Shown here piece after piece: positions 5,102-24,033 of a DNA stretch of 24,033 nt. Below the pieces are notes generated by a model. The model worked only from the letters and a program-made list of their open reading frames with translations, had not been told where the DNA came from and ran no database searches. Numbering within the stretch: position 1 is the first letter of the stretch; every line of letters begins with the position of its first letter. A program made the position numbers and the translations under genes. This stretch comes from a virus, in the IMG/VR virus record IMGVR_UViG_3300028025_006518, positions 1 to 24,033 of that record, one strand, 5' to 3'.

Positions 5102-8100
5102 TGGCAGATAATATTAAAATAGTAGGTGAAATTTTAAATACTCAACAAGTATCTCGTTATGATGAGGCTGACCTTAATTTATTTTCATCACAAATATTAA
5201 AAGAAGATTTTGGTCAACAGAATGATTACATTGAATATTTTGTTTATGATGCTGGTAATAATCTTTTAAATACTAATTATAGCTATAAAGATTTTAAATC
5301 CCCCAGCACCTCATTTGTAGATCCAACTACAAATGCTTTACCTATTATTGAAATAGATCCAGTTAAAGATTTACAAAATCTAGACTATTCATCAGGTGAA
5401 TTTATAGTCCAATATAACATATTTACTAATAGAATTTCAGATTCAAATGCTGAATTATTTCTAAAAGAAATTTCAGCTGATAGGACTGAATTAAGAGTAG
5501 GGTCTACTATATTAACAAACGAACAAATTGAAAGTGGATCTTTAGCTCTTATAAATGAAGCTTCTGGTTCTTCTTATTTTGTTGATCATTTACTTAACTT
5601 TGGTAATAATATACAAGTAGTAGCTGTAAATGTTGCTTTAAATAAAGTAGATTCTGGATATGAAATTCTATTTAAATTATACCAACCACTACCTGACAAC
5701 ATACAAGAAAAAACAACTTTATGGGTTGTTGATGAAAAATCAAACCCATATGTTTTTGATATTAATCTAGATAAATTAATCATCCCCACTCCTGGTCCTC
5801 AATTAAGAGGTCCTAACTTTGCTATTGACATACCTAATCAAAATAACATTGCTACTTCCTACCAGACATATAATGGTTTAGTAAATAGTTTACAAAATGT
5901 TTCTTCATCATATCAACAACTTTTAAGTCTAATAACTTCACAAAGTATTGATATTAATACTGATTATACTAATTTTAATAATTTTGTATTTTTTAGCTCA
6001 GCTAAACAGAGAATTATTAATTTTTATAATAAAGTAAAGCAAATTGAAGATTATAAAAATAGTATAGCAACTTATACTCCTTTAACATCTAGTCGCCCTA
6101 ATCTAATTTATGATTTAAATCTAGCTACAGCTAGTATAAATAATACTATAGTTAATTTTGATGGATTTGAATATTATTTATATTTTGAAAGTGGTTCTAC
6201 TTTAACTTCATCTTTAGAATTTGGTATAACACCATATCCTAAATCTGGTTCTTTAAAACCTTTCCCTTTATATTCAACAGGATCTGCTTTAGTTACTACT
6301 TGGTTTAATGCTGCTACATCTAGTGCTGATGATTATGATGATTACAATCAAAATAATTTAACATACACAGTCCCTTCATTTATTAAAGATGACGGGAATA
6401 ATGACCCGTATCTAACCTTCCTTAATATGGTGGGTCATTATTTTGATAATATTTGGATTTTCTTAAATGCTATTACTGATATAAATTTAGCAAATAATAA
6501 TTTAGAACAAGGTATCTCTAAAGATTTAGTATACACTACTCTACAATCCTTAGGAGTAAAATTATATAATAAATACGGAAATTCAGATAATATTCCCTTT
6601 TTAATAGGAAATAATGGTAGTTCTAGTTTTGATAATAATTTTACCCTTACTGGCTCCTATTTAAATTCAATTCCTCAAAAAGATTTACTTGCTGAATCTT
6701 ATAAGCGTATTTATCATAATTTACCTTTATTATTAAAAACTAAGGGTACAACTTATGGTTTACAAACATTAATATCTACATTTGGTATTACTAGTAGTAT
6801 ATTGAATGTTAAAGAATATGGTGGTGATTTAAAATCTCAAACACTAGACGAATATAATAACGATAAAATTAGAATAGTTAATAGTACTATAACAGGAAGT
6901 GTTTTATCTCCTTTTATTAGCTTACAAGAACAACCCACATCATCTCTTCTATTTAGAACAGATGATTTACATTATGCTGATATTTCATTCTCACCTGAAA
7001 CCCAGATTGATATTTATGCTTCAGCTTCAATATCCGCTGCAGACCCAACTTGGAGTTTAGATGATTATATAGGAGATCCAAGACAATTATATAGCAGCTC
7101 GTATAATGATTTAAACACTCAAAGAAATACTTATTATAATTTTACTTCATCCTATATGGATTATGCTGGATTTATCCGCTTAATTCAATTTTTTGATAAT
7201 TCATTGTTTAAAATGATAAAAGACTTTGTTCCTGCAAGAACAAGTCTATCAACAGGCATTACTATTAGTTCCCCAGTATTAGAAAGGAATAAATGGTCTT
7301 ATGCAAACCCATCCTCTACAAATGAAATAGAGGTAATGGATGCTAATTTAGAAGGCCCAACAATTACTACTGAATATACTGATCTATATCAAGGATTAAC
7401 AGGTAGTAAAGCACCATACTATACAGGTGAATTTAGTGGAAGTGTAATTGAATATGGTGATGATTGGATAGAAAGAAATTTTAATCCCTATTTACACCCA
7501 ACAGCTAGTTTAACATCTAGTATAAATGCTTTTAACCATTCAGAATTTAATGTATTACTAAACAATGTATCTGCAAGTAGATTATCTATTACTAGACAAG
7601 ATATAGAATTCATATATGGCACTACAGGAAGTATATTAACTCCTGCTTATTTACAAGATACAAATGAAAGTTTAACTACATATAATAAGGCAAGATATGA
7701 AGGTGCTAAAGTAAGTAGTCTATTATATAGTGTTTATACTAGTGCTTCTGCTGACTATAGTGGTGATTCATCCTATGGTAAAACAGCAGCTATAAATAAA
7801 GATGTACGCAAATTAGGATTATTTACTGATATAGTAGCATCTTCTTTACTCCCAGGTCGTAATAGAGTAGCGTTAAAATATCTTGTAGATGAGTTTGGAG
7901 ATTTAACAGAATTAAACCAACGTAATAAAAATTGGGAAGAGGTACAAAGAACTTTTATTGCTGGGAATTATTTAAATGTATCTCAATTTGACAATCAAAA
8001 ATCAAGCAATCAAAAATCAACAGACGGTAATAAACTTATTTTTGATAGTGGATATTCATATAATCCTATTCTATATTTTGTAACATGTAGTGCAACAGAT

Positions 8101-8820
8101 CCTAAAATATATTTTGAAAATTTATCCGGAGCTAGTTCTTATAGAGCGACTGCTAAAAATGGCACATTCCCTTTAACTATTAGTGGATCAAGCCCACTAG
8201 GATATCCTATATCAGCAAGTTATGTACCTAATATATTTAATACCTTAAATGATACAGCTGGTGCTGCTTATTTTAAAGTTGGAGATTTAAATTCACATCC
8301 TAGTTATTCTGTTCAAGAAACAGGAGAACATAGTATACAAGCTAGTTTTGATATGACAGTAGAACTTGTAGGAACAAGCCAGTCTGCTACTTGGTCTCTT
8401 CAAGTATTTAAAAATAATGAAGTTTCTCCCCTATATGAGTCTGAACAAATATTTAGTACAGATGGACCGGGTGGAACTATCTCTAGAAGAGTACTTATAG
8501 ATTATACAGTAAGTACATCTGCAACAAATACAATATTAGTATCAAATAGTACTAATGCCAATACAGTTTCTGTTTCTGGACAATCTAGAGGTAGTATATT
8601 TATTTCTGTTCCTAATAATGGATCTTCTATACCAGTAACATTTATTATAGATAAAACAGCCCCAACTTCTAACGCTAGTGATTCAGGTACAGCACAATTA
8701 ACACTTGATGCTATTGAGGTTGATTCATTCCCTATTACAATAAATACTCAACTTTATGGAACTCTTACAGCAAACATAAATAATACAGAGGTTGCTGAAT
8801 TAAAAATATATGAAGGATAA
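5101..8820 (+). CDS. Large virion structural protein, candidate baseplate wedge gp7-like
   Basis: At 1239 residues this is the largest protein of the window. It follows gp25, gp6 and three smaller genes, and its size and place recall T4 gp7 (1032 residues) or gp10. The region at about residues 526-580 (ESYKRIYHNLPLLLKTKGT, then GLQTLISTFGI and VKEYGG) looks like a conserved core I associate with tail/baseplate proteins of marine-type phages. Residues about 255-330 are Ser/Gln-rich and helical. The C-terminal 200 residues are strand-rich and polar (about 1040-1239), probably two beta-sandwich domains facing outward. Asn and Ser are very frequent. It has no signal peptide and no enzyme motif. 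The structural role is likely, but the specific gp7 equivalence is a weak inference from order and size. Confidence 0.72.
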   Translation: MADNIKIVGEILNTQQVSRYDEADLNLFSSQILKEDFGQQNDYIEYFVYDAGNNLLNTNYSYKDFKSPSTSFVDPTTNALPIIEIDPVKDLQNLDYSSGEFIVQYNIFTNRISDSNAELFLKEISADRTELRVGSTILTNEQIESGSLALINEASGSSYFVDHLLNFGNNIQVVAVNVALNKVDSGYEILFKLYQPLPDNIQEKTTLWVVDEKSNPYVFDINLDKLIIPTPGPQLRGPNFAIDIPNQNNIATSYQTYNGLVNSLQNVSSSYQQLLSLITSQSIDINTDYTNFNNFVFFSSAKQRIINFYNKVKQIEDYKNSIATYTPLTSSRPNLIYDLNLATASINNTIVNFDGFEYYLYFESGSTLTSSLEFGITPYPKSGSLKPFPLYSTGSALVTTWFNAATSSADDYDDYNQNNLTYTVPSFIKDDGNNDPYLTFLNMVGHYFDNIWIFLNAITDINLANNNLEQGISKDLVYTTLQSLGVKLYNKYGNSDNIPFLIGNNGSSSFDNNFTLTGSYLNSIPQKDLLAESYKRIYHNLPLLLKTKGTTYGLQTLISTFGITSSILNVKEYGGDLKSQTLDEYNNDKIRIVNSTITGSVLSPFISLQEQPTSSLLFRTDDLHYADISFSPETQIDIYASASISAADPTWSLDDYIGDPRQLYSSSYNDLNTQRNTYYNFTSSYMDYAGFIRLIQFFDNSLFKMIKDFVPARTSLSTGITISSPVLERNKWSYANPSSTNEIEVMDANLEGPTITTEYTDLYQGLTGSKAPYYTGEFSGSVIEYGDDWIERNFNPYLHPTASLTSSINAFNHSEFNVLLNNVSASRLSITRQDIEFIYGTTGSILTPAYLQDTNESLTTYNKARYEGAKVSSLLYSVYTSASADYSGDSSYGKTAAINKDVRKLGLFTDIVASSLLPGRNRVALKYLVDEFGDLTELNQRNKNWEEVQRTFIAGNYLNVSQFDNQKSSNQKSTDGNKLIFDSGYSYNPILYFVTCSATDPKIYFENLSGASSYRATAKNGTFPLTISGSSPLGYPISASYVPNIFNTLNDTAGAAYFKVGDLNSHPSYSVQETGEHSIQASFDMTVELVGTSQSATWSLQVFKNNEVSPLYESEQIFSTDGPGGTISRRVLIDYTVSTSATNTILVSNSTNANTVSVSGQSRGSIFISVPNNGSSIPVTFIIDKTAPTSNASDSGTAQLTLDAIEVDSFPITINTQLYGTLTANINNTEVAELKIYEG

Positions 8821-8823
8821 AAT

Positions 8824-9552
8824 ATGGCAGCTCAAACAAAAACATTTAGTATTAATCAATCATCTGTTTCTTTAAATCAAACAGATAAGTTAACTTTTAA
8901 ACTTGTATTAAAGAATGCTACTACTAATAATTTTACTGCTTCTTTAACTGAGGGATCATTAATAGTTAATTCGTTAGCTGCATCTATTGGTTATTCATCT
9001 GCAACCTGTCCTTATTTCTCCTCAGCTTCTATATCGGCATCGTATGCAAAGGGAGAAAATAATGTAATTACTTTTAATACAGCTTTAAGTAATTTTCATC
9101 AAGATCAAAATTATATATTTGTCCCTAATCCACTTACTGGATCTGAAAGTAGTTTATATCCTATATATGGAGATGTAGATTATAAGTTTGTTACTAAACC
9201 CTATGATATAGTAATAGCATATCTATCAGATAATACTTATGTTGAATCTAGAATAACATCAGTATCATATTCTAGTAGTTTACTACAATTAACACTAGAT
9301 ACTCCTTTATCTAATCTATACCGCGATAATCTAATTTCAGAGTCATATCAACGTTTTTTAGTATTATCTCGACTTGAAGATGAAACAAGTGCATTTTTAA
9401 CCTTTAGAAAACGAGAAGGTTCAACATCATATGGTTTTACAATACCTCAAAACATAGCAGCTAGTGTATTAGATAATATAGATACAATTACTAGAGAGGT
9501 AAAACAAAAACTACTATCTGATCAATCACAAGTAACAATAAATACTTTTTAA
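8824..9552 (+). CDS. Hypothetical tail/virion protein
   Basis: I do not recognise this 242-residue protein. Residues 1-110 look like a beta-sandwich (FSINQSSVSLNQTDKLTFKL and following alternating strands). The middle (about 110-165) is a second strand-rich part, and the C-terminal 60 residues include a longer helix, NIDTITREVKQKLLSD. It follows the 1239-residue protein after only three bases and ends 35 bases before the next virion gene. Base composition and frequent Ser/Thr/Asn match its neighbours, which supports a tail or baseplate role. There is no transport signal and no active-site motif. Confidence 0.7.
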   Translation: MAAQTKTFSINQSSVSLNQTDKLTFKLVLKNATTNNFTASLTEGSLIVNSLAASIGYSSATCPYFSSASISASYAKGENNVITFNTALSNFHQDQNYIFVPNPLTGSESSLYPIYGDVDYKFVTKPYDIVIAYLSDNTYVESRITSVSYSSSLLQLTLDTPLSNLYRDNLISESYQRFLVLSRLEDETSAFLTFRKREGSTSYGFTIPQNIAASVLDNIDTITREVKQKLLSDQSQVTINTF

Positions 9553-9559
9553 ACTTAAT

Positions 9560-9568
9560 ATATTTATA
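9560..9568 (+). promoter_or_regulatory. ATATTTATA box, candidate phage promoter element
   Basis: ATATTTATA lies in the 35-base AT-rich gap before the virion gene at 9588, 19 bases ahead of its ATG, and is followed by further TATA-like words. The same 9-mer occurs ahead of 383, 3672 and 16522. A promoter role is inferred. Confidence 0.35.
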
Positions 9569-9587
9569 ATATATACAATAGAATAAT

Positions 9588-10250
9588 ATGGCAATTTTAA
9601 ATCCTACAACAATAACTGTAGATGCAATTTTAACCACGAAGGGCCGTGAATTATTAGCTCGTAATGATGGTTCATTCAAAATTACTCAATTTGCATTAGC
9701 AGATGATGAAATTGATTATACTTTATATAATCCAACCCATCCATCTGGATCTGCATTTTATGGTGAAGCAATTGAAAATACTCCTGTATTAGAAGCGTTT
9801 CCTGAAGATTCACAAATAATGCGTTACAAACTTGTAACTTTACCTCGTGGAACATCACGTTTACCTGTTATTAATATTGGATATAATAGTATTTCACTTA
9901 AACAAGGTGCTTCATTAACAATTACTCCACAAACACTTAACTATTTAGGTGCTACAAGTACATTTGAAGCTAATGGATATGTTGCAACTATTGCTGATTC
10001 TAGATTAGTATCTTCATTTAGCGGAACTGGTATTACAACAACTACTCCAATTTCAGGGTTAAATACAACTACTGGCACTGTACTATCAGTAACACAAGTA
10101 GGTACTTCGTTTACATTAACTGGTACAACAATTAATACTTTATTTGGATCTACTTTGTCTACCTTAACAACTACCATTACCGTGATTGGTAGAGATAGTG
10201 GTGCTAGAATTACTATTCCTTTGAATATTCAAAAAGTATCAACAAACTAA
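9588..10250 (+). CDS. Putative virion structural protein
   Basis: This 220-residue protein begins MAILNPTTITVDAILTTKGR and continues with ELLARNDGSF, KITQFALADDEIDY and a GEAIENTPVLEAFPED segment. I associate this kind of N-terminus with structural proteins of T4-like environmental phages. Residues 115-220 are a Ser/Thr/Gly-rich beta domain ending in SGARITIPLNIQKVSTN and may be Ig-like. CGT is used more often for Arg here than in the adjacent large tail gene, and the gene has a longer leader with an ATATTTATA box, both consistent with strong separate expression. It may be an abundant tail or fibre-attachment protein. The exact role is not shown by the sequence. Confidence 0.7.
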   Translation: MAILNPTTITVDAILTTKGRELLARNDGSFKITQFALADDEIDYTLYNPTHPSGSAFYGEAIENTPVLEAFPEDSQIMRYKLVTLPRGTSRLPVINIGYNSISLKQGASLTITPQTLNYLGATSTFEANGYVATIADSRLVSSFSGTGITTTTPISGLNTTTGTVLSVTQVGTSFTLTGTTINTLFGSTLSTLTTTITVIGRDSGARITIPLNIQKVSTN

Positions 10251-11216: not shown

Positions 11217-13046
11217 ATGGCATCATTCAAAAAGTTAAGCAAATCAGACGTTACACTTGTACCTTACTATGCGAATAAGCAATGGAATTTATCCTATTGC
11301 CCATATCCAACATCTTCTGAGTACTTAACTATTTACAATGGTACTAATCTTACAGGTAGCTTTTCATATGATGATGATCCTGTAACAGAAGGACAGTATG
11401 ATCGATTAGTATACAGCCAAATAAATCAACTATTCTATCAGAAGTATACAACTCCACTAAACACATCCTCATTAGTAAATTCAATTTACTACGAATCAGC
11501 TTCACAACAAAGACCAACATCATCATACTTTATATATAATGATAGTGCTAGATTAATTGAAAATTTCCCTACAGGAGCTATGCAGGGTATTCGAGTATTA
11601 ACAGTTAATCAAGATATTTACGGCGATAAAGTACTACCAAACCATTTCCAGTTATCATCATCAGCTTATAATATTATAGATGACGGATATGGAAATTTAT
11701 ATGATTACTCTAGTTCTATAACTCATGTTGGAAATTTATTTTATGCTCATGGATTAGGAATAATAACTAATCAGGACTATCAAATGATGTTCCCTCTTCC
11801 TCCAATTGCTAAAAACGATTATGGAAGTTTTTTAACCACAGACATTAAAACTATTATAGCATCATCAAATGATTATGCTAGAAGTGGAACTCTAAACATT
11901 AATTCACTTGTTTTATCCGGTAGTATTTCAGGCCCTGGATATTCTTGGGCAACTGGTAGTAGTGGTGCTATTACTTTAACAACAACTATCTCAGGTACAT
12001 ACTCAATATGGTATACTATAGGAGCTAGTATTGCTGGATCTTGTGCTGTGAATTTAAGAAGTAATAAAGCTAAAGTTACTATTGTTGTAGCAGATCCAAC
12101 AACAACCAGTACAACAACAACAACAACTACAGCTGCACCTACAACGACGACAACAACTACTACTAGTACGACAACTACTACCACTACGGCTGCACCTACA
12201 ACTACTACAAGTACGACTACATCGACTACAACAGCGGCTCCGACAACGACAACAACTACGGCTGCACCTACAACGACAACTACTACAACAGCGGCTCCGA
12301 CAACGACAACAACAACAGCGGCTCCGACAACGACAACAACTACGGTAGCACCTACAACGACAACAACAACAGAAGCACCTACGACAACAACAACTACGGC
12401 TGCACCTACAACGACAACAACAACAGCGGCTCCAACAACAACAACTAGTACAACTACTTCTACTACAACGGCAGAACCAACTACTACAACTAGTACGAGT
12501 ACGACCACAAGTACAACAACAGCAGCTCCAACAACAACAACAACAACAACAACAGCTGCACCTACAACGACAACAACAACAGCTGCACCTACAACGACAA
12601 CAACAACAGCTGCACCTACAACGACAACAACAACAGCTGCACCTACAACGACAACTAGTACAACTACGTCAACAACAACAGCAGAACCAACTACTACTAC
12701 AAGTACAACAACATCAACAACAACAGCAGAACCAACTACTACTACAAGTACAACAACATCAACTACAACTGCTGAGCCGACAACTACTACAAGTACAACA
12801 ACATCAACTACAACTGCTGAGCCGACAACTACTACAAGTACAACAACATCAACTACAACTGCTGAGCCGACAACTACTACAAGTACAACCACAAGTACAA
12901 CTACGGCAGAACCAACTACTACTACAAGTACCACAACAACGACTACAACTGCTGTTGTTTCCTATTTCTTCTGTATGGGTTATAACGCTTCAAACTGTGG
13001 ATTAGCTTGTAGTGATTATGCAAATTGTGAAAGTCCACCATCTTAA
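11217..13046 (+). CDS. Fibre-like virion protein with mucin-like Thr/Pro/Ala tract
   Basis: This is a 609-residue protein. Residues 1-200 are a structural domain (YDRLVYSQIN, DKVLPNHFQL, VGNLFYAHGLGIITNQDYQ) similar in motif order to the preceding gene's product, so it is probably built into the tail. Residues about 205-293 look like an Ig/PKD-like beta domain. Residues 295-578 are an almost pure Thr tract with regularly spaced AAP, AEP, VAP or EAP breaks and some Ser, a mucin-like stalk with hundreds of possible O-glycosylation sites. The last 31 residues carry five Cys (C583, C591, C595, C602 and one between) and end in ESPPS. The start at 11217 is preferred over the out-of-frame ATG at 11213. 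Three glycosyltransferase-like genes follow closely, suggesting that the tract is their substrate. A Thr-rich spacer that is never glycosylated is the alternative. Confidence 0.8.
   Translation: MASFKKLSKSDVTLVPYYANKQWNLSYCPYPTSSEYLTIYNGTNLTGSFSYDDDPVTEGQYDRLVYSQINQLFYQKYTTPLNTSSLVNSIYYESASQQRPTSSYFIYNDSARLIENFPTGAMQGIRVLTVNQDIYGDKVLPNHFQLSSSAYNIIDDGYGNLYDYSSSITHVGNLFYAHGLGIITNQDYQMMFPLPPIAKNDYGSFLTTDIKTIIASSNDYARSGTLNINSLVLSGSISGPGYSWATGSSGAITLTTTISGTYSIWYTIGASIAGSCAVNLRSNKAKVTIVVADPTTTSTTTTTTTAAPTTTTTTTTSTTTTTTTAAPTTTTSTTTSTTTAAPTTTTTTAAPTTTTTTTAAPTTTTTTAAPTTTTTTVAPTTTTTTEAPTTTTTTAAPTTTTTTAAPTTTTSTTTSTTTAEPTTTTSTSTTTSTTTAAPTTTTTTTTAAPTTTTTTAAPTTTTTTAAPTTTTTTAAPTTTTSTTTSTTTAEPTTTTSTTTSTTTAEPTTTTSTTTSTTTAEPTTTTSTTTSTTTAEPTTTTSTTTSTTTAEPTTTTSTTTSTTTAEPTTTTSTTTTTTTAVVSYFFCMGYNASNCGLACSDYANCESPPS
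12555..12635 (+). repeat. Tandem 27-bp coding repeat (AAPTTTTTT)
   Basis: Three consecutive 27-bp units begin at 12555, 12582 and 12609, each starting GCTGCACCTACAACGACA and coding for AAPTTTTTT. They are essentially identical in DNA, so they arose recently by slippage or unequal recombination. Units of the same protein type further upstream (12190-12430) are more diverged in synonymous positions. Confidence 0.9.
12636..12950 (+). repeat. Tandem 45-bp coding repeat (A-A/E-P Thr/Ser unit)
   Basis: Seven 45-bp units begin at 12636, 12681, 12726, 12771, 12816, 12861 and 12906. All but the last code for A(A/E)PTTTTSTTTSTTT; the last has Thr for the second Ser. The units at 12771, 12816 and 12861 are nearly identical in DNA. 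Copy number is likely to vary between relatives. Confidence 0.9.
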
Positions 13047-13506: not shown

Positions 13507-14448
13507 ATGAAAAATTTGCGTTATGTTTGTGTTCAACCAAGGCTACTTTATTATGCTTGGCAGGTAGAAGTTATGATTAATAATTTTATTAAGCATGGTA
13601 TTAGTGGTAATGATATTGATATTTTAGTTGCTTGGAATCCTAATGATTTAACCTCAACTCCTGAAAATATAGAAATTTGGAATAAATTAGCTAATAAGTA
13701 TAATTATGTCCGTTTTTTCTTCTATCAAGATACTAGAGAGGATATGTCTTATATTCCATCAATATACTTTAATATATTAAAACAACATATTAAAGCATAC
13801 CCTGAACTATCTACTCAACCTTTATTTTTACATGATTCAGATATATTATTTACCAAACCAGTAGATTTTAATTTTGCTTTAAATGATAATGTATGGTATT
13901 TAAGTGATACAGTAGGTTATATAGGTACACAATACATTTTAACTAAAGGTGAAGATGTCTATAGAGGCATGTGCAATCAAATAGGAATAGATCCTTTAAT
14001 ACCTAAACTTCTTAATTCCAATTCAGGAGGAGCTCAACATATTGTTAAAAATTCTACTTATGGATATTGGGATAAAGTAGAAAAAGACTCTATAAAATTA
14101 TATAAATGGTTTTGTGAACAAGAACCACTATGGAAAGGAGAAGGGAATCCAATACAAAAATGGACAGCAGGGATGTGGTCATTATTGTGGAATGCTTGGT
14201 TATTTGAACATGAAACTAAAGTAGACAAACGATTAGATTTTTGTTGGGCTACAGATCCTATTTCTAAGTGGAATGATGTTTGCATATTTCATAATGCTGG
14301 CGTAACTGAACATGGTAAATTATTTATGAAAGGAAATTATATTAATTCTTTACCTTATAATATAGAAAATACGTTTGATTCCAATTTTTGCTCATATAAT
14401 TACGTTAACGAAATAATAGAAACAACTCAAAAATCATGTCTAATATAG
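13507..14448 (+). CDS. Putative GT-A-type glycosyltransferase
   Basis: This 313-residue protein has the marks of a nucleotide-sugar-dependent GT-A enzyme: an N-terminal strand, then YYAWQVEVMINNFIKHGI (about 15-32), a strand FLHDSDILFTKP with the metal-binding DxD at 110-112, and an acceptor-side segment NSNSGGAQHIV (170-180) followed by TAGMWSLLWNAW (220-231). The WQ helix, the DxD context and the GMWSL segment resemble eukaryotic peptidyl-serine galactosyltransferase and hydroxyproline arabinosyltransferase-like enzymes, which modify polypeptides. I put low weight on that subfamily call. It is the first gene of a three-gene overlapping cluster placed among virion genes, and its likely substrate is a virion protein. 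It has no membrane segment, so it is probably cytoplasmic. Confidence 0.68.
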   Translation: MKNLRYVCVQPRLLYYAWQVEVMINNFIKHGISGNDIDILVAWNPNDLTSTPENIEIWNKLANKYNYVRFFFYQDTREDMSYIPSIYFNILKQHIKAYPELSTQPLFLHDSDILFTKPVDFNFALNDNVWYLSDTVGYIGTQYILTKGEDVYRGMCNQIGIDPLIPKLLNSNSGGAQHIVKNSTYGYWDKVEKDSIKLYKWFCEQEPLWKGEGNPIQKWTAGMWSLLWNAWLFEHETKVDKRLDFCWATDPISKWNDVCIFHNAGVTEHGKLFMKGNYINSLPYNIENTFDSNFCSYNYVNEIIETTQKSCLI

Positions 14449-15845
14449 ATTATCCTTTTATATCATGTAAGTGTATTACTTATGGTAGAGTCAATACATT
14501 AGAAGAATCAATATATTCCTTCATTAATCAAAAATACCCTGGTAGAAAAGAACTTATTATTATTAATGATTATCCTTTACAAAAACTTGAATTTGATCAT
14601 CCTGAAGTAAAAATAATTAATTTAGACTATACATTCCCTACAATTGGGGAAAAAGAAAATTTTGCTATAGAACAATGTTCAGCAAATATAATAGCAGTAT
14701 GGGATGATGATGATTTAGCTTTACCAAATCACTTATGTAATATAGCTAAATATTTTAAAGAAGATTCGGTTTTATTACAATGGAATAGAGGAGTATTATT
14801 TAATAATCCTGATGTTGCTGCTATAACAGGCTTAGGAAATAGTGGAATTGTTTATAGTAAAAAAGCCTGGGAAGAGGTTGGAGGACATCCTTTAGAAAAT
14901 GCAGGATATGATATGACCTTTGTTATTAAATTAAAAAATACCTTCCCCAATAAAATAATAGCAGCTAACCCTCCATACGATGAAGTAAGTTGGATATATT
15001 ATTGGGGAGGACGATCATATCATATGAGTGGTCAAGGAGCAGATCAAGAAAATGACAGACCTAATATTATTATAAGACATTCCGATTATATTGAAAGTCA
15101 AAGACAATTAGGAAACATACCAACAGGAATTATAAAGCTAGAGCCTAAGTGGGAATTTAATTATATTCAAAAAGTAAAAGATTTTATAAAAAAACAAAAC
15201 ATAGAAACTCCAAAAACATATAAGATACAAGAAGAATATACCCATAGACTCCACCCAGGACATCATGATGATTCAAATTGGGAAGATCAATCACAATATG
15301 AAGTTTATCAATATTGTGCTAAATTTATGGAATTAAATAATCTACAAACTGTTGTAGATGTCGGGTGTGGTAGTGGATTTAAACTAATAAAAGATCTAGG
15401 TAAATTTAAAACAATAGGTACAGAAACTGAACCCTGTTATTCATTACTTAAATCAAAATACCCTGATCGTGAATGGTATTTAGCTGGAGAACCTGAAAGA
15501 TCCTTCCTTCAGAATCCAAATATTGAAAATGCAGATGTTGTTTTATGTTGTGATGTAATTGAGCATATTATTGATCCTGATATTTTATTAGAACATTTAA
15601 TAAGTTTAAATGCAAAATATTATATAATTTCTACACCTTGTAGAGAAACATTATGCAAAAATCCTAGATTTTCTAGTATATATGAACCAACATGGAACGG
15701 ACCTCCTTTAAATGGCTGCCATGTAAGAGAATGGACAATGAAAGAATTTATTGAATATATATCAGAAAAATTTAAAGTAATAGAATCTTTTTATGGAGAA
15801 AAACAAATTGAATGTCAATATCATTTATTAAAAAATTATAATTAA
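14436..15845 (+). CDS. GT2 glycosyltransferase fused to SAM-dependent methyltransferase
   Basis: This is a 469-residue two-domain protein. Residues 1-about 230 are a family 2 GT-A domain: FISCKCITYGRVNTLEESI, a strand ELIIINDYP, and the acidic metal-binding WDDDDLALP at 89-96, followed by an acceptor region with GYDMTFVIKL. Residues about 285-460 are a class I methyltransferase: motif I VVDVGCGSGFKL (306-317), an acidic strand-end TETEP, and CDVIEHIIDPD (372-382), as in the Methyltransf_11/23 group. The fusion suggests that a sugar is transferred and then methylated, or that a growing glycan is capped. It overlaps the upstream gene by 13 bases and the downstream gene by one, showing translational coupling. 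Both domains look intact. Confidence 0.85.
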   Translation: MSNIDYPFISCKCITYGRVNTLEESIYSFINQKYPGRKELIIINDYPLQKLEFDHPEVKIINLDYTFPTIGEKENFAIEQCSANIIAVWDDDDLALPNHLCNIAKYFKEDSVLLQWNRGVLFNNPDVAAITGLGNSGIVYSKKAWEEVGGHPLENAGYDMTFVIKLKNTFPNKIIAANPPYDEVSWIYYWGGRSYHMSGQGADQENDRPNIIIRHSDYIESQRQLGNIPTGIIKLEPKWEFNYIQKVKDFIKKQNIETPKTYKIQEEYTHRLHPGHHDDSNWEDQSQYEVYQYCAKFMELNNLQTVVDVGCGSGFKLIKDLGKFKTIGTETEPCYSLLKSKYPDREWYLAGEPERSFLQNPNIENADVVLCCDVIEHIIDPDILLEHLISLNAKYYIISTPCRETLCKNPRFSSIYEPTWNGPPLNGCHVREWTMKEFIEYISEKFKVIESFYGEKQIECQYHLLKNYN

Positions 15846-16501
15846 TGCTAAAAATATTAGTAACTACAGCTTGTTTTAGTAGTGGATTACATTCTAAATG
15901 GATAGATCAAAAATCAGATAAGTATGAAATAGTATTTAATAGAATAGATGACTACACAGAATCAGCAAGAATAAAAGCAATGGCCCCTAGGTTAAGAGGT
16001 AAAATTTCTAAAATGATTATTTGGGAGGATTATCCTGATTATGATTATTATATATGGGCTGATTCAAACTTTTCAATAGTTAACGAAAAGGCTATAGAAA
16101 AATTAGTTGATGAATGCCTTAATGTAGATGCAAGCTTTTTTAAACACACAGGAAGAAATTCTGTAAAACAAGAAGCTGATTTTGTTTTAGACTTAATGGC
16201 AGATGGTAACCAGTATCTTTTAAATAGATATGATGGAGAAAGAATAAAAGAACAAGTTGAATATTATTCTAAAGATCTTACTTGGAATGATAATTATTTA
16301 TTTGAGTGTGGGATCTTTATATATTCAAAACACATTATTGAAAATAAAAACTATAACTTAATGAAGGAATGGTTTTATCATAACTGTTTATGGTCTGTAC
16401 AAGATCAATTAAGTCTTCCCTATTTAGTTCATAAATTTAATATAAACTACAAAATACTCCCGGGGAATGTATATGAAAATGAATATTTTAAAATAATCTA
16501 G
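15845..16501 (+). CDS. Putative glycosyltransferase, DUF616/TOD1-like
   Basis: This 218-residue protein resembles the DUF616 (TOD1/MUCI70) glycosyltransferase-like group. Support: SARIKAMAPRL (40-50), a strand then DYYIWADSNFSI with a D-x-N/D site at 73-75, a FKHTGRNSVKQEAD segment (99-112), FECGIFIYSKH (153-163), and WSVQDQLSLPYLV (183-195), where Asp-Gln is characteristic. It has no signal peptide or transmembrane segment. Its ATG overlaps the upstream stop (TAATG), so it is the third coupled enzyme of the cluster. It is the only gene here that ends in TAG. The family call is by motif memory; a different GT-A subfamily is possible. The substrate is unknown and is inferred to be a phage virion glycan. 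Confidence 0.65.
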   Translation: MLKILVTTACFSSGLHSKWIDQKSDKYEIVFNRIDDYTESARIKAMAPRLRGKISKMIIWEDYPDYDYYIWADSNFSIVNEKAIEKLVDECLNVDASFFKHTGRNSVKQEADFVLDLMADGNQYLLNRYDGERIKEQVEYYSKDLTWNDNYLFECGIFIYSKHIIENKNYNLMKEWFYHNCLWSVQDQLSLPYLVHKFNINYKILPGNVYENEYFKII

Positions 16502-17318: not shown

Positions 17319-18260
17319 ATGGATAATACAGCTCTACTATTCTTAATTGAATCAGTACTAGGTAAAGGACAATCAACAAGTAAAGGTAATTACGCTTTTA
17401 AATGTCCATTCTGTATACACCATAAACCAAAATTAGAAATTAATTTACGTACAACAGCTAAACGTGAAAACTTTTGGCATTGTTGGATCTGTAGTGCTAA
17501 GGGTAAAACATTACTTTCATTATTCAAAAAGATGAAAGCTCCAGACAACAAAATAGGAGAACTTAACATTCTAATAATCCCAGACAATACTAAAAATATT
17601 GAGTTAAGTGTTATACAATTACCTAAAGAGTTTATTTCATTAATTGATACAACTAAGTTAGATAAAATATTACAAATTGAATTAAAACACGTTTTAAAAT
17701 TTCTTAAATCACGTGGTTTAAATCAAGATGATATAATTAAATATAATATTGGTTTTTGTAAAGATGGTAAATATGGAGGCCGTGTTATTATTCCTTCATA
17801 CGACAACGACAAAAAATTAAATTATTTTATAGCTAGAGATTATAAAGGCGAAACACCTCAAAAATACAAAAATCCACCAGTAGCGGCTAAAGACGTTATT
17901 GGTTTTGAATTATATATAAATTGGGATGCACCAATCGTACTTGTTGAAGGTATGTTTGATGCTTTAACAATTAAACGTAATGTTATTCCTTTATTTGGAA
18001 AAGCAATACATGGTAAGTTAATGGAGAAATTAGTTAAATCTTCTGTTGATAGAATTTATATTGCTTTAGATCAAGATGCTAGGCGTGATGCTTTAAAACA
18101 AGCTGAAATGCTTATGTCATATGGTAAAGAAATATATTTGGTAGAAATGGAGGGTAAAGACGCTAATGAAATTGGTTTTGAAAATTTTTTAAACACTATT
18201 GAGCAAACACAACCACTGAATTTTCAGAGTTTGCTTGAGAAAAAATTACAACTATTATGA
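17319..18260 (+). CDS. 61: DNA primase, T4 gp61-like (zinc-binding plus TOPRIM)
   Basis: This 313-residue protein has a CHC2-like zinc-binding domain with Cys pairs C29-x2-C32 (KCPFCIHH) and C55-x2-C58 (HCWICSAKG), a linker helix, and a catalytic core. The TOPRIM part shows E210 in VLVEGMFDALT and the metal-binding D251/D253 in IALDQDARRDAL, then GKDANEIG. The upstream GGRVIIPSYDNDKKLNYFIARD motif is typical of DnaG/gp61 cores. The length is near T4 gp61 (342). It synthesises RNA primers for lagging-strand DNA synthesis with a phage helicase not seen here. The next nuclease gene overlaps by four bases (ATGA), so the two are co-translated. Its 26-base leader may hold a promoter for the replication block, but no clear box is visible. 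Confidence 0.87.
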   Translation: MDNTALLFLIESVLGKGQSTSKGNYAFKCPFCIHHKPKLEINLRTTAKRENFWHCWICSAKGKTLLSLFKKMKAPDNKIGELNILIIPDNTKNIELSVIQLPKEFISLIDTTKLDKILQIELKHVLKFLKSRGLNQDDIIKYNIGFCKDGKYGGRVIIPSYDNDKKLNYFIARDYKGETPQKYKNPPVAAKDVIGFELYINWDAPIVLVEGMFDALTIKRNVIPLFGKAIHGKLMEKLVKSSVDRIYIALDQDARRDALKQAEMLMSYGKEIYLVEMEGKDANEIGFENFLNTIEQTQPLNFQSLLEKKLQLL

Positions 18261-19042
18261 TTATTGACAGGAATGCAAACCTCATTAAAGACCCTAAAAT
18301 TAAGCGTCTTGTAGAGTACAGCGAAGGAGATAAACAAGTAAATGTTTTAGATAGTCGATTTTACAAACGCAACGACAAATACTATCCTTCAGTTACCTCA
18401 GTATTAAATTATTTTCCTAAAAACCAATTTTTTCATAATTGGCTTAAAGATGTAGGACATAATTCAGATATTATTGCTTCTAAAGCAGCAGGTGAAGGTA
18501 CACAAGTACATACTGCTATTGATCGTTATCTAAATGGAGAAGAAATTAATTGGATTGACGAATATGGTAAAGCACAATATTCACTTGATGTTTGGAAGAT
18601 GATTCTTAAATTTGCAGATTTCTGGTCAACACACAAACCAGAATTAATAGCAACAGAATATCATCTATTCTCAGATAATCATGAATATGCTGGTACAGCT
18701 GATTTAATTGTTAAAATTAATGATAAAGTATGGTTGCTTGATATTAAAACATCTAATTCACTCCATACATCTTATGGTCTACAATTAGCAGCATATGCTG
18801 TTGCTTGGAATGAAACCCATAATCAATTAGTTGAAGATACAGGAGTATTGTGGTTAAAAGCATCTACTCGTGGTGAAGGTAAAGGAGATACAATTCAAGG
18901 TAAAGGATGGCAATTAAAACAATATGGTGGGATTGCTACTAATTTTAAGATGTTTCAAAACATATATGAAATATATAAAATGGAAAATCCTGATTTTAAG
19001 CCTATGACTTTATTATTACCTACAAGTGTTAAATTAGCTTAA
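18257..19042 (+). CDS. PD-(D/E)XK exonuclease, RecB-like
   Basis: This 261-residue protein has all the expected RecB/AddB-type nuclease motifs in order: GTQVH (81-85), TEYHLF with E134, GTADLI with D149, LLDIKTS with D162 and K164, and QLAAYA with Q176 and Y180. The N-terminal 45 residues include PSVTSVLNYFPK, also usual in this family. It should cut or resect DNA with Mg2+, in phage recombination, repair or degradation of host DNA. It follows the primase with a four-base overlap, which supports a replication/recombination operon. It has no helicase or Fe-S Cys cluster, so it is not Cas4-like. A small, single-domain phage exonuclease fits best. Confidence 0.85.
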   Translation: MIIDRNANLIKDPKIKRLVEYSEGDKQVNVLDSRFYKRNDKYYPSVTSVLNYFPKNQFFHNWLKDVGHNSDIIASKAAGEGTQVHTAIDRYLNGEEINWIDEYGKAQYSLDVWKMILKFADFWSTHKPELIATEYHLFSDNHEYAGTADLIVKINDKVWLLDIKTSNSLHTSYGLQLAAYAVAWNETHNQLVEDTGVLWLKASTRGEGKGDTIQGKGWQLKQYGGIATNFKMFQNIYEIYKMENPDFKPMTLLLPTSVKLA

Positions 19043-19053
19043 TAAGATTTAAG

Positions 19054-19065
19054 TTATACGTATAA
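19054..19065. promoter_or_regulatory. 12-bp palindrome before the receptor gene, candidate operator
   Basis: TTATACGTATAA is a perfect 12-bp inverted repeat that ends five bases before the ATG of the TonB-dependent receptor gene, in the only non-coding stretch before it (28 bases). It contains a CG centre, rare in this AT-rich DNA. It could be a repressor site or overlap a TATA-type -10 box. No binding protein is identified. Confidence 0.4.
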
Positions 19066-19070
19066 GTGAA

Positions 19071-21317
19071 ATGAAACATTTATTATTTTTTCTGTTGTGT
19101 CCTTTATTTTTATTTTCTCAAGACACATTATTTAATAAGAAACTAGATAATATCACAGTTACTTCCGTAACTAAAAAAGAAACCAATGTAGCTGTTCTTA
19201 ATATAATTAGGAACAGCTCTGTTGTTTCTGATGGATTATCTGTTGAATTTATTAAGAAAACACCTGATCGCACTGTTGGAGACGCTCTTAAAAGAATTAA
19301 TGGCGTTACTATTCAAAACGATAAGTTTGTATTAGTACGTGGTTTAGCTGATAGATATAATCTAGCTTTATTAAACAAAACATTACTTCCATCTACCGAA
19401 CCCGATAGGCGAGCATTTTCATTTGATATTATCCCTTCAGGATTAATTGACAACATTATTATAGCTAAATCAGCAGCTGCTAATTTACCTGGAGATTTTG
19501 CAGGTGGTATTGTACAGATAACAACTAAAGATGTATCTAACAATTTTTTCTCCTTCAGCACAGGATTCAGTTATGGAACGGTATCTACATTCCAAAAATT
19601 CAAATCGGTGGAATATACGCCGTTTCCACAAAATTTTCCATCCACATACCGATTTCGTATAGGCAATAATGGTGATAAACGAGCTTATACTCGATTAGTT
19701 AATTCACCCCAAGTACGAACTATTAGCTCTGTGCCTAATACAAACAGTTCATTTTCTTTTGGATTAAAAAAGAATAAATGGAATTTAGTATTTAGTTCAG
19801 TTTATAGAAATTCATATTCAATAAATTATACTGACAGGCAGGATTACCAATCTTTAACTGAATTAGCATACAAGTATAAAGATACTTCCTATTCTAATAT
19901 TCAGTTATTGAATGGATTAGCTAATATTACTTACATAGGTAAGAACAAATACAGTTTAAAGACATTATTTAATCATCAAATAGAACAATTATATTTAACT
20001 CGTAATGGAGAGAATTATGATAATGTTCAAGATGTAAGAAGTAATGCTTCTAACCATATTGTTAAAACTGTTATAAATTCTCAATTTGAGGGTAAAATCA
20101 AAACATTAGATTTTAATTTAGGTTATAATTTAATGTTACGTGATCAACCCGACTATAGAGTTAACCCAATTACTAAATCATTAGGTATAAATGAACCTTA
20201 TGCTGTTGCTTGGAGAGATACATATCGTTTTTGGAGTGTAATGGATGAAAATAGTTTTAATGGAGGTATTAATAAAACCTTCAATAAAATTAAAGTTGGT
20301 GGTGGTTATCTTAAAAAGATAAGAAATTTCCAAGCCAGAATATTCAGATATGAGGCTACAGATATGTTAAATGAAATCACAAACAATACAGATAGATATA
20401 AGGCTGATTTTGATTTAGCAACAGGATATGCAATGTATGATAATGATTTTGGAAAATGGAAATTAAATACTGGTTTGAGAACAGAATATAACCTATTTGA
20501 TGTTAACACAGCTGACTTTAGCGGTCAAAAAGTAAATGTAAATAGAGAGTATTTTGATCTACTCCCATCATTGAATTTATCTTATAATTTAGATAAAACT
20601 AAATTTAGATTCTCAGCTAGTAAAACATTAGCACGTCCTGAATTTAGAGAAGTAGCTAATTTTGCTTATTATGATTTTGTTCGTAACGCACAAATATTAG
20701 GTAATTCTAAATTAGAAAAATCAGATATCTATAATTTAGATTTTAAATATGAATACTACCCTAAATCAGGTGAAAATATATCAATTGGAATATTCGGTAA
20801 GAATTTTATTAAACCTATTGAACAAATAGTAGCAGATGGTTCTGTCCCGTCTAATTTATTACTTACTTTTACTAATCCAAATAAAGCAACCGTTTATGGT
20901 ATTGAATTTGAATTACGTAAAAAAATAAATAATTGGTTGGATTTTTATACTAATTCATCTTTAATTCATTCTGAGGTAAAAGTAAATGGAACTAAACGTC
21001 AATTACAAGGTCAGTCAAATTACATTGTGAATGGCGGTTTAAATTTCCATAAAGATAAAAACACATTAAATGTTACATATAATCGTGTCGGAGATAGATT
21101 ATCCGCTGTTGGTTTCCAAGGATATGCAGATATATTTGAAAATAGTAGAAATATTTTAGATGTAGTATACTTAAGAAAAATAAATAAAGGCGAAATTAAG
21201 GTTGCAATAAACGACGTTTTTGCTCAATCATCAATATATTATCAAAAAACAAAAGGCGATTTAATTAAAACAAACAACGAACAAACAGTCTCATTAACTA
21301 TCAATTTTAATTTATGA
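19071..21317 (+). CDS. TonB-dependent outer-membrane receptor, phage-borne
   Basis: This 748-residue protein starts with a Sec signal peptide (MKHLLFFLLCPLFLFSQ, cleavage near residue 17), then a TonB-box-like LDNITVTS (25-32), then a plug domain (about 44-155). The plug has TVGDALKRINGVTI, VLVRGLADRYNLALLNK, STEPDRRAFSFDIIPSG and DFAGGIVQITTKD, the pattern of a large Bacteroidota receptor group. From about 160 to 748 it is a beta-barrel rich in alternating aromatic strands, ending SLTINFNL, a credible barrel-closing signal. The N-terminal carboxypeptidase-regulatory-like domain common in this group is absent, so it is shorter than usual. It would sit in the host outer membrane and import a nutrient using TonB energy; the ligand is unknown. 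It is flanked by phage genes and overlaps the lipoprotein gene by four bases. Capture from a host is inferred. Confidence 0.93.
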   Translation: MKHLLFFLLCPLFLFSQDTLFNKKLDNITVTSVTKKETNVAVLNIIRNSSVVSDGLSVEFIKKTPDRTVGDALKRINGVTIQNDKFVLVRGLADRYNLALLNKTLLPSTEPDRRAFSFDIIPSGLIDNIIIAKSAAANLPGDFAGGIVQITTKDVSNNFFSFSTGFSYGTVSTFQKFKSVEYTPFPQNFPSTYRFRIGNNGDKRAYTRLVNSPQVRTISSVPNTNSSFSFGLKKNKWNLVFSSVYRNSYSINYTDRQDYQSLTELAYKYKDTSYSNIQLLNGLANITYIGKNKYSLKTLFNHQIEQLYLTRNGENYDNVQDVRSNASNHIVKTVINSQFEGKIKTLDFNLGYNLMLRDQPDYRVNPITKSLGINEPYAVAWRDTYRFWSVMDENSFNGGINKTFNKIKVGGGYLKKIRNFQARIFRYEATDMLNEITNNTDRYKADFDLATGYAMYDNDFGKWKLNTGLRTEYNLFDVNTADFSGQKVNVNREYFDLLPSLNLSYNLDKTKFRFSASKTLARPEFREVANFAYYDFVRNAQILGNSKLEKSDIYNLDFKYEYYPKSGENISIGIFGKNFIKPIEQIVADGSVPSNLLLTFTNPNKATVYGIEFELRKKINNWLDFYTNSSLIHSEVKVNGTKRQLQGQSNYIVNGGLNFHKDKNTLNVTYNRVGDRLSAVGFQGYADIFENSRNILDVVYLRKINKGEIKVAINDVFAQSSIYYQKTKGDLIKTNNEQTVSLTINFNL

Positions 21318-22516
21318 AAAAATTATTAGGGTTTATTTTAGTATTAGCATTATTTAGCTGCAAGAAAGAATTAGGTGGTGGTGAAGGACCAATCAATGTA
21401 CCTTCAACTACAACATTGGTTGGCAACATTAACACAACAACCACATTAACATCAGACAAAGTTTGGACATTAAAGGGTTATGTATACGTAACCGATGGTG
21501 CTAAACTTATTATCCAACCTGGCACTACTATTGTAAGTGATATTGCTGAAAAAGGTGCCCTGTGTATTGAAAGAGGAGCCCAAATTATTGCTGAAGGTAC
21601 AGCTGCAAAACCAATCATATTCACCTCAGGTAAAAACGCCGGCGAGAGGTCTCCTGGTGATTGGGGTGGTATTGTAATTTTAGGTCGTGCTAAAACCAAT
21701 AGATCATCAGAACCAACTATTGAAGGTGGTATTGGTCGCCCTTATGGTGGTACAAACGATATTGATAATAGCGGAATATTAAAGTATGTTCGTATTGAAT
21801 ATGCTGGTATAGCTGCATTACCTAATTCAGAAATCAACGCTTTAACATTAGGTGCTGTAGGTAGTGGTACTGTAATTGAAAATGTACAAACCGTATACGC
21901 AAATGACGATGCGTTTGAGTTTTTTGGTGGGACTGTAAATGCTAAAAATTTATACGCATTCGCTACAGCCGATGATGATTATGATTTTGATTTTGGTTAT
22001 ACAGGAACTGTAACAAATGGTGTATCAAAACGTGATCCTCAATTTGTAGATAATGGAGATGCAGGTAACGGTGTAGAATGTGACAATGACGGCACTGGTT
22101 CATCAGCACAGCCATTTACCCATCCTAAATTGATAGGTATGATATTGGTTGGACCATTTGATGCTACTTCATTAGCAAACCATAATTTAGGTTTAAGATG
22201 GAGACGTGCAACACAATTCACAATGACTAATTCTAAAATATTAGGATATCAAAAAGGTGGATTTAGCATTGAATCAAATGAAACCGCTCAAGCTTATAAA
22301 GATGGTATTTCTAAATTTCAAAATAATGAAATCCAATCATTTGACCCATTACAAAATTTCAGATCTACATCTACTGTATTTATAGCAGATAACATGAAAG
22401 TAAAAGCATTAGGTGAAGGCAATAAAGAGGTAAAATATACTAAATTAGAAATGGAGGCGTTTTCAAGACCATCATGGATTAACGGATGGACTCGTTTTCC
22501 ATCTAAAGGACAATAA
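21314..22516 (+). CDS. Surface lipoprotein with beta-helix fold, receptor partner
   Basis: This 400-residue protein has a lipoprotein signal peptide with lipobox ALFSC (lipidated Cys at 16), followed by KKELGGGEG. Residues about 35-330 show right-handed parallel beta-helix features: GAKLIIQPGTTIV, KPIIFTSG, GDWGGIVILGRA, YGGTNDIDNSGILKYVRI, NALTLGAVGSGTVIENV and DDAFEFFGGTVNAKNL. In Bacteroidota, proteins of this type are commonly encoded next to TonB-dependent receptors and are thought to help capture ligand at the surface. Residues 219-226 form an acidic patch (ADDDYDFD). Its ATG overlaps the receptor's stop (ATGA), giving tight coupling. The exact fold count and the ligand are inferred. 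Surface exposure is unproven, as the residues after Cys only weakly resemble known Bacteroidota export signals. Confidence 0.87.
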   Translation: MKKLLGFILVLALFSCKKELGGGEGPINVPSTTTLVGNINTTTTLTSDKVWTLKGYVYVTDGAKLIIQPGTTIVSDIAEKGALCIERGAQIIAEGTAAKPIIFTSGKNAGERSPGDWGGIVILGRAKTNRSSEPTIEGGIGRPYGGTNDIDNSGILKYVRIEYAGIAALPNSEINALTLGAVGSGTVIENVQTVYANDDAFEFFGGTVNAKNLYAFATADDDYDFDFGYTGTVTNGVSKRDPQFVDNGDAGNGVECDNDGTGSSAQPFTHPKLIGMILVGPFDATSLANHNLGLRWRRATQFTMTNSKILGYQKGGFSIESNETAQAYKDGISKFQNNEIQSFDPLQNFRSTSTVFIADNMKVKALGEGNKEVKYTKLEMEAFSRPSWINGWTRFPSKGQ

Positions 22517-22579: not shown

Positions 22580-23551
22580 ATGATCAAATTACTTAACCTA
22601 GCTAAGCAGATACTAAAAGAAGGTGGTAACGTATTCGGTACTACAGACTCAATTGAAAAAGATAATATTGAACCTACTATTGAAAAATTTGTAGAGCAAT
22701 TATCTAAAATATTCCCTGCTAAAGCATCTACATTTACATCATTTGAGAAATTAGGATCAGCTGGTAAAAAAGCAGTATCGGGTGATATTGATTTATCATA
22801 TGATATTAAAAATATATTCCCTGGTGGTAAACCTGACTTTAAAGGTTGGGGTGTAGATGAAAACAAATATAACGAACTTTTAGCACAATTCACTAAAAAA
22901 GCTAGAACAGCATCACCTGAGAAACTTCAGTTACGTGCTATGATTGTATTAATTGGAGATAAAATTAATGATTCATTACCTGATGTTGAAGTAGATCTTA
23001 AAGCATCTGGTGCTGGTTCTATATTTTGTGCTGTTCCTCAATACGGACCTGATGGTGAAAAAATAGGTAAAGCAGTTCAAACAGATATTAACGTAGGTAA
23101 CCCTGAATGGTTACGTTTTAGCTATTATTCCCAATCATATGAGGGTAATGTTAAAGGATTACATCGTACACAATTAATGTTAGCTTTATTCTCTAATAAA
23201 GGAAAATCATTTGGTCACACCACAGGTGTAGTTGATAAAGAAAGTGGTCAACAAGAAGCATCTAATCCTAAAGAAGCTATTGATTTATTAAATCAATTAT
23301 ATGGCTTTAATTTAACTCAAGATACATTAGATAATTATTTTAAGTTAGAAGATTTTATGAGGAATAATATATCTAAAGAAGAATATAATTCCATTATGGA
23401 TAGATACCTTAAAATACTTGATTCAACTCGAGCAGACATACCAGAGAATTTACAAAAATATTGGATTGATAATCAAGACAGATTAGGATTAAAAGGTAAA
23501 TTCTTACCTGATAATTCTAAATTAATTCCTTACCAAAAAGAAAAAGCCTAA
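22580..23551 (+). CDS. Nucleotidyltransferase-fold protein, unknown substrate
   Basis: This 323-residue protein shows a Pol-beta-superfamily nucleotidyltransferase pattern: LGSAGKKAVSGDIDLSYDI (about 57-75) with a Gly-Ser pair followed by D-x-D, and a candidate third acidic residue in AVQTDINVG or in DVEVDLKA. The C-terminal half is helical (DLLNQLYGFNL, DYFKLEDFMRNNI). The spacing from GS to DxD is eight residues, slightly short for the superfamily. It could add nucleotides to RNA or protein, or modify a small molecule; nothing in the sequence says which. A related gene follows with a one-base overlap. The ATG at 22580 follows an A/T-rich leader after the hairpin. No HEPN partner is visible, which argues against a classic MNT-HEPN toxin pair. 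Confidence 0.68.
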   Translation: MIKLLNLAKQILKEGGNVFGTTDSIEKDNIEPTIEKFVEQLSKIFPAKASTFTSFEKLGSAGKKAVSGDIDLSYDIKNIFPGGKPDFKGWGVDENKYNELLAQFTKKARTASPEKLQLRAMIVLIGDKINDSLPDVEVDLKASGAGSIFCAVPQYGPDGEKIGKAVQTDINVGNPEWLRFSYYSQSYEGNVKGLHRTQLMLALFSNKGKSFGHTTGVVDKESGQQEASNPKEAIDLLNQLYGFNLTQDTLDNYFKLEDFMRNNISKEEYNSIMDRYLKILDSTRADIPENLQKYWIDNQDRLGLKGKFLPDNSKLIPYQKEKA

Positions 23552-24033
23552 TGTCTGGATCAGCAGGTGGAAATAGAATTACTAGAGGGTCAGTTGCTAA
23601 AACTGTTGACTCCTATATTAATAGAATATTAAAGAAATTTCCTGCTTTTAAAAGCGCTAAAGTTTCAGGCTCATACAACACAAGTGCTAAAGAAGACTTT
23701 GGTGATATTGATTTAATTGTTAATTTAGAAGCAACAGATAAGAAAAATATTAAATTAGAATTAGCTAAATTTCTATCTGATTTACCAGATGATGTTATTG
23801 TTCCATTTAAAAGTGAAAAATATAAAGGTAAAAAATACCTAAATACAGGAGAAATAATCACTATATTACACCCTATAGAAGGCCAACCAGGTGAATATGT
23901 TCAAATAGATAATATAGTTTCTATAAGTGATGACGAAGCTGAATTTAAAAAAGAATTTTTAGATTATCCTGCTGAAATACAAGGATTATTATTAGGATTA
24001 GCTAAAGTAATATGTTTAGAGGAAGATCCTAAA
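23551..24033 (+). CDS. Second nucleotidyltransferase-fold protein, cut by window end
   Basis: The reading frame starts MSGSAGGNRITRGSVAKTVD and stays open for 161 codons to the window edge. It contains KVSGSYNTSAKEDFGDIDLI (about residues 36-55), with Gly-Ser and D-x-D at the normal superfamily spacing, and GEYVQIDNIVS, whose Asp is the likely third metal ligand. It overlaps the previous stop by one base. Its VQID and a following Glu/Phe-rich then Leu-rich helix (AEIQGLLLGLAKVI) align in order with the VQTD and later segments of the upstream gene, so the two may be diverged duplicates. The substrate is unknown. The C-terminus lies outside the window. Confidence 0.72.
   Translation, partial: MSGSAGGNRITRGSVAKTVDSYINRILKKFPAFKSAKVSGSYNTSAKEDFGDIDLIVNLEATDKKNIKLELAKFLSDLPDDVIVPFKSEKYKGKKYLNTGEIITILHPIEGQPGEYVQIDNIVSISDDEAEFKKEFLDYPAEIQGLLLGLAKVICLEEDPK

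Follow-up and report, generated by a model that had tools for sequence, protein, structure and literature searches.

In F. johnsoniae, the phoBR operon contains a TonB-dependent transporter (TBDT) gene beside a gene for a pectin-lyase-fold lipoprotein (FII). For this pair, Fjoh_0545/0546, transcript fold-changes of 8.0 and 9.9 are listed for phosphate depletion, which is reported as the sole inducer of these loci (PMC8115612). In Caulobacter, the phosphate-starvation surface lipoprotein ElpS (CC0170) is encoded beside the TonB-dependent receptor CC0171, and the two are reported to co-occur in many genomes (PMC2996285). Here we describe a pair of this kind in viral DNA, a TonB-dependent receptor gene (TBDR) and an adjoining putative surface lipoprotein gene (LIPO), found in a stretch of 24,033 bases (IMG/VR record IMGVR_UViG_3300028025_006518, the window). 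We consider it probable that the pair is an outer-membrane phosphorus-acquisition cassette in a T4-like phage of a Bacteroidota host.

The pair resembles Fjoh_0545/0546 and Fjoh_3857/3856 in that a TBDT with the Plug and OMP_b-brl_3 domains adjoins an outer-membrane lipoprotein, of the pectin-lyase fold in F. johnsoniae (PMC8115612) and possibly so in our case, and the cellular homologues of the phage pair are likewise found beside PhoB/PhoR-like genes. It differs in being phage-encoded, in the gap of 28 bp that separates it from replication genes and in the lack of a PF13715-type extension. The Caulobacter pair is similar in the adjacency of a surface lipoprotein to a TBDR, but it is located beside a type II secretion cluster on a proteobacterial chromosome and its lipoprotein is released (PMC2996285). 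The known phage phosphorus genes (pstS, phoD, ugpQ, pit and others) are also thought to raise the phosphorus supply and are under purifying selection, whereas they act in the periplasm, inner membrane or cytoplasm (PMC10987575, PMC10976474).

The receptor gene (19071-21317, plus strand, as are all its parts) encodes a TonB-dependent outer-membrane transporter of 748 amino acids, identified by its open reading frame (ORF), Pfam and a fold search. A putative signal peptide of ~17 residues (MKHLLFFLLCPLFLFSQ, 19071-19121) was recognized by eye, and Q17-D18 are invariant in 16 phage homologues. The putative TonB box LDNITVTSV (19143-19169), also recognized by eye, is conserved in position in the phage homologues. 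The plug domain (PF07715, residues 55-146, 19233-19508, E 2e-7) and the barrel part (OMP_b-brl_3, PF14905, residues 395-742, 20253-21296, E 1e-27) both score above the curated Pfam cut-offs. The predicted structure has ~22 barrel strands and a mean pLDDT of 57, the barrel being modelled better and the plug poorly. The fold search with this model gave 165 PDB matches at E<=1e-3, with matches to TonB-dependent transporters at E 1e-13; all of the 50 matches listed are outer-membrane transporters of the TonB-dependent kind, and XusA-XusB and BtuB-BtuG, complexes with surface lipoproteins, are among the model's matches. The window encodes the short form of the receptor, which does not have the N-terminal carboxypeptidase-like (PF13715-type) extension. 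This extension of ~80 residues is present in some phage TBDRs and absent in others (e.g., L041 and L086 versus the window), and its spread on the TBDR tree suggests repeated loss.

The stop codon of TBDR and the start codon of LIPO (21314-22516, plus strand) share the bases ATGA. LIPO encodes a putative surface lipoprotein of 400 amino acids, predicted to be a beta-helix and the partner of the receptor, according to the lipobox, the structural model and a fold match. Its N-terminus (MKKLLGFILVLALFSC) carries a lipobox, recognized by eye, that ends at Cys16. The predicted structure is beta-rich with moderate confidence (pLDDT 66), and because its best PDB match, a pectate lyase, is weak (E 6.5e-3), the beta-helix is likely, not proven. 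LIPO matched no Pfam family, a PDB search with its sequence gave no credible match, and neither TBDR nor LIPO had a match in PHROGs. The arrangement exceeds what chance would give, the ATGA overlap being conserved in 70 of the 74 phage loci and the pair recurring on more than 80 viral contigs. TBDR and LIPO co-occur in every viral locus whose sequence extends into the adjoining DNA. An initial annotation of the window, made from its sequence, had described a complete receptor with signal peptide, plug and barrel end, coupled on the same strand to a beta-helix lipoprotein. The receptor, the coupling and the pairing were confirmed, and the beta-helix fold agrees with the weak match and moderate model.

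The nearest cellular orthologues of the pair were detected in Aquirufa (TBDR 68%, LIPO 72% identical). In Aquirufa antheringensis, the pair is followed by genes encoding an alkaline-phosphatase-superfamily protein, a PitA-like carrier, a phosphonate-degradation HD oxygenase, a PhoA-like phosphatase, a TIGR03364 oxidoreductase and a phosphonatase-like (PhnX-like) hydrolase; the matches to TIGR03276 (Phn-HD oxygenase) and TIGR03364 are both above cut-off. A PiT, PhoU, PlcP-like or phosphatase gene is located within ~10 kb in 24 of the 80 host TBDR loci and in 0 of the 40 controls (Fisher 1.5e-5; 22 of 78 when the two query loci are left out), where the controls are regions of 20 kb, all from one family, and the related genomes among the loci are not independent. 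Both this enrichment and the Aquirufa locus show the linkage of cellular homologues to phosphorus genes that is expected of an ElpS/FII-type pair. Among the upstream host neighbours, PhoU_div is the joint top Pfam family, and PHO4 and polyphosphate kinase are found as well. In a phylum-wide draw, the PstS-like PBP_like_2 and a secretion tail domain share first place among the neighbouring Pfam families, and TBDR repeatedly has PhoB/PhoR-like genes, in pairs, next to it (L415, L419). The phylum-wide BLAST counts for PstS and PhoB are circular, since the queries came from the same loci, and the Pfam result alone is counted. Genes downstream of the host homologues, mostly GNAT/acyltransferase by Pfam, were not used as evidence; many Sphingobacteriaceae homologues (L211-L288) adjoin GNAT/acyltransferase and Mpo1-like genes, possibly for aminolipid synthesis.

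The location of the nearest bacterial counterparts in phosphorus-scavenging clusters suggests that the virus probably aids phosphorus uptake by the infected cell. The import of nutrients, one of the roles proposed in the initial annotation, is supported and can provisionally be narrowed to phosphorus on account of the host gene context and the published analogous systems. Several observations weigh against it. The kinship to the Fjoh and Caulobacter pairs is judged by domain content, fold and gene order. The wider LIPO family is present in 149 of 247 Bacteroidota genomes, with several copies in some, and most of the members sampled lack an evident adjoining phosphorus gene; other substrates are therefore conceivable for some paralogues. 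The window does not contain the companion PlcP-like gene found in relatives (see below). The pair could therefore import another nutrient, such as a glycan, siderophore or vitamin, if the phosphorus context of the host relatives is not transferable to the phage. We regard this as unlikely. The substrates of TBDRs in general are diverse, the wider LIPO family is multi-copy in some hosts, and a megaphage TBDR has been labelled SusC and read as a carbohydrate uptake protein (PMC9723777), but the nearest host orthologue lies in a phosphorus locus, phosphorus genes are enriched near the host homologues, and the receptor has no SusD-type partner, LIPO belonging to no Pfam family. A SusCD- or PusCD-type system was rejected, as LIPO contains no SusD domain (PF07980/PF14322).

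The pair is strongly supported as phage-borne in a T4-like lineage. Its left flank is a PD-(D/E)XK/RecB-type exonuclease gene (18257-19042, plus strand; PF12705; phrog_298, E 7e-39) with relatives in 68 viral loci, and its right flank is a phage nucleotidyltransferase-like gene (22580-23551, plus strand), whose product has no Pfam or PHROG match and which was assigned by its relatives in 33 viral loci. These are the phage neighbours that the initial annotation had named. The IMG/VR scan detected TBDR relatives in 26 loci (67-100% identity) and LIPO relatives in at least 129 places, the best 80 being at least 74% identical; the pair is present on more than 80 IMG/VR contigs. All window genes were mapped onto the IMG/VR loci found with TBDR and LIPO, and the order exonuclease-TBDR-LIPO-nucleotidyltransferase is common to the independent contigs L003, L004 and L026 (27, 44 and 183 kb). 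In the 183-kb relative, the TBDR frame (L026:9959-11716) stops early, at 585 amino acids, while the remaining gene still matches, which is either real or due to assembly. The pair was also detected in several unrelated phage contexts. Hallmark genes are present on 34 of the 62 cassette contigs: 19 have either a strong terminase match or the major capsid of T4 type (PF07068), and 15 others have a baseplate-wedge gene. Terminase matches with E values from 1e-4 to 1e-12 were too weak to be counted, and many of the contigs with no hallmark gene are fragments. The window itself is a linear fragment of 24 kb, as host contamination or a chimeric assembly would allow, but several independent contigs, the longest of 183 kb in this lineage, repeat the same junctions and carry hallmark phage genes, and relatives have empty sites. 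Such an artefact was rejected as having a negligible probability.

The same insertion was found in related phage genomes, where the site is occupied, empty or filled with other inserts. In relatives with the empty site, the exonuclease and nucleotidyltransferase genes are 18-75 bp apart (575 bp in one case). The fillings are TBDR-LIPO, GT-MPE, MPE alone and TBDR-LIPO-GT-MPE, where GT is a family-2 glycosyltransferase and MPE a calcineurin-like phosphoesterase. The comparison shows that TBDR-LIPO enters and leaves one site beside replication genes. The fullest filling is present in L004, the closest relative of the window (TBDR 95% identical). In the relatives, the GT2 gene adjoins the phosphoesterase gene, which reaches no curated PlcP model; we tentatively take the phosphoesterase to be PlcP-like from its motif, its match being below the curated cut-offs. 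The two genes occur at this site, with or without the TBDR pair, in L004 (13065-14491), L143-L146, L149, L158, L162, L164, L185 and L188, and GT-MPE directly follows LIPO in ~8 contigs elsewhere in the phage set. In 14 of the 80 host loci, homologues of the phage phosphoesterase (36-43%) occur in the vicinity of the pair. The gene combination resembles the marine plcP-agt lipid remodelling clusters in having a GT and a calcineurin-like phosphoesterase at the same site, and differs in that GT and phosphoesterase are absent from the window and the family match is below the curated cut-offs (PMC4796936). We tentatively suggest, with somewhat less than even confidence, that this hotspot of T4-like Bacteroidota phages is a swappable phosphorus island that combines TonB import with phospholipid replacement by PlcP-like/GT enzymes, so that the cell both imports and strips phosphorus.

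Purifying selection acts on both genes: between phage copies, TBDR has a dN/dS of 0.055-0.12 and LIPO one of 0.07-0.13, with one pair saturated. A tree of 50 non-redundant phage and 28 host TBDRs, built by a quick method, grouped all 50 phage sequences with three Aquirufa-like host sequences in a single clade (support 99), and the branch between this clade and all other hosts has a length of 0.96 changes per site. The Aquirufa-like sequences are nested within the phage clade, showing that the genes have moved between phage and host, in either direction. A close orthologue is found in only 3 of the 222 genomes of the Aquirufa family. The nesting of Aquirufa sequences and the movement of the pair in and out of one site could be expected of passing host cargo with no selected function, but purifying selection, the conserved overlap of the two frames and the depth of the phage clade, with its 50 non-redundant sequences from varied contexts, make such cargo very improbable.

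TBDRs are common phage receptors, and the initial annotation had also considered that the pair replaces or blocks the receptor of competing phages or alters the one used by the phage itself. In a reading of this kind, the cell surface would be changed so that other phages are excluded or redirected (receptor replacement, decoy or superinfection exclusion). In superinfection exclusion of the Llp/Cor type, a short lipoprotein blocks a host TBDR and no TBDR is encoded with it. Phage T5 Llp blocks the TBDR FhuA, and the entry PDB 8a60 is among the fold matches of the TBDR model. A decoy or altered receptor is expected to vary in its long loops, whereas in 16 diverse phage copies the long loops are 58% invariant and the strands 35%, with loop limits taken from a model of modest quality. 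No part of the barrel is more conserved than these loops, contrary to what a receptor arms race would produce; the plug and putative TonB box are conserved, and LIPO always accompanies the receptor gene. With its 400 amino acids and beta-rich structure, LIPO is not a short blocking lipoprotein, and it was rejected as an exclusion lipoprotein of the Llp/Cor type for its size and its co-encoded TBDR. Receptor blocking or replacement found no support here, and we consider a change of the cell surface quite improbable as the function of the pair.

For phosphorus acquisition, the following mechanism can be proposed. The spacer between the exonuclease and receptor genes is 28 bp (19043-19070, plus strand, read from the sequence) and is hardly long enough for a Pho-type promoter of the pair's own. 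As only these 28 bp precede TBDR, the pair would be transcribed with the primase and exonuclease genes during infection, in contrast to the cyanophage pstS, whose control seems to lie with the host PhoBR (PMC10976474). LIPO may be located outside the outer membrane beside the receptor, capturing or presenting a phosphorus source, for which an organophosphate, phosphonate or polyphosphate is the candidate, and TonB-driven TBDR would import it. Phosphatases of the host periplasm and carriers of the inner membrane would complete the uptake, and the phosphate would then supply phage DNA synthesis. In relatives, the occupants of this site include GT and the PlcP-like phosphoesterase, which, through the replacement of phospholipids, could lower the demand for phosphorus.

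Phosphorus genes of phages are already well known, and the proposed outer-membrane receptor/lipoprotein phosphorus cassette would be a new form of them. The text of a 2024 survey extending the kinds of phage phosphorus genes contains neither TonB nor PlcP (PMC10987575). A search of open-licence papers found none that connects PlcP with phage auxiliary genes, prior description elsewhere being possible. The view that this is a little-described function is borne out: one paper mentions a megaphage TBDR (Mar_Mega_1, LR745206), with no mention of the pair or of phosphorus (PMC9723777). Among phage records, the cassette was found in the uncultured LR745206 and in unannotated faecal fragments only. 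In LR745206 (L320, 634,780 bp), a phage-encoded TBDR (~7700-10244) also has LIPO adjacent (6404-7699, upstream), but the gene order is reversed and the proteins are 26% (TBDR) and 38% (LIPO) identical; this pair is apparently an independent acquisition, reversed and diverged.

Phages are rich in DNA, and phosphorus is often limiting in infections. The known phage phosphorus genes act after the outer membrane has been crossed, and a TonB-driven, lipoprotein-assisted step would add the missing entry point and give a function to an abundant uncharacterised lipoprotein family. If the phosphorus island suggested above is real, it would contain the first outer-membrane phosphorus and the first lipid-remodelling modules in phages, according to the open-licence literature searched. 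The T4-like Bacteroidota phages with the cassette form a widespread lineage, and they are predicted to be more frequent where phosphate is scarce, for which existing metagenomes suffice.

Besides the exonuclease gene, the window encodes a gp25-type protein, a second baseplate-wedge protein, a SegE-type endonuclease and, upstream of the pair, a DNA primase-like protein (17319-18260, plus strand; phrog_47, E 1.4e-40). A second nucleotidyltransferase-like ORF (23552-24033, plus strand), open at the window end, co-occurs with the preceding gene in relatives. A protein with long threonine-rich repeats (TTTAAPTTTTTT...) is encoded at 11217-13046, followed by glycosyltransferase-like genes at 13507-16501.

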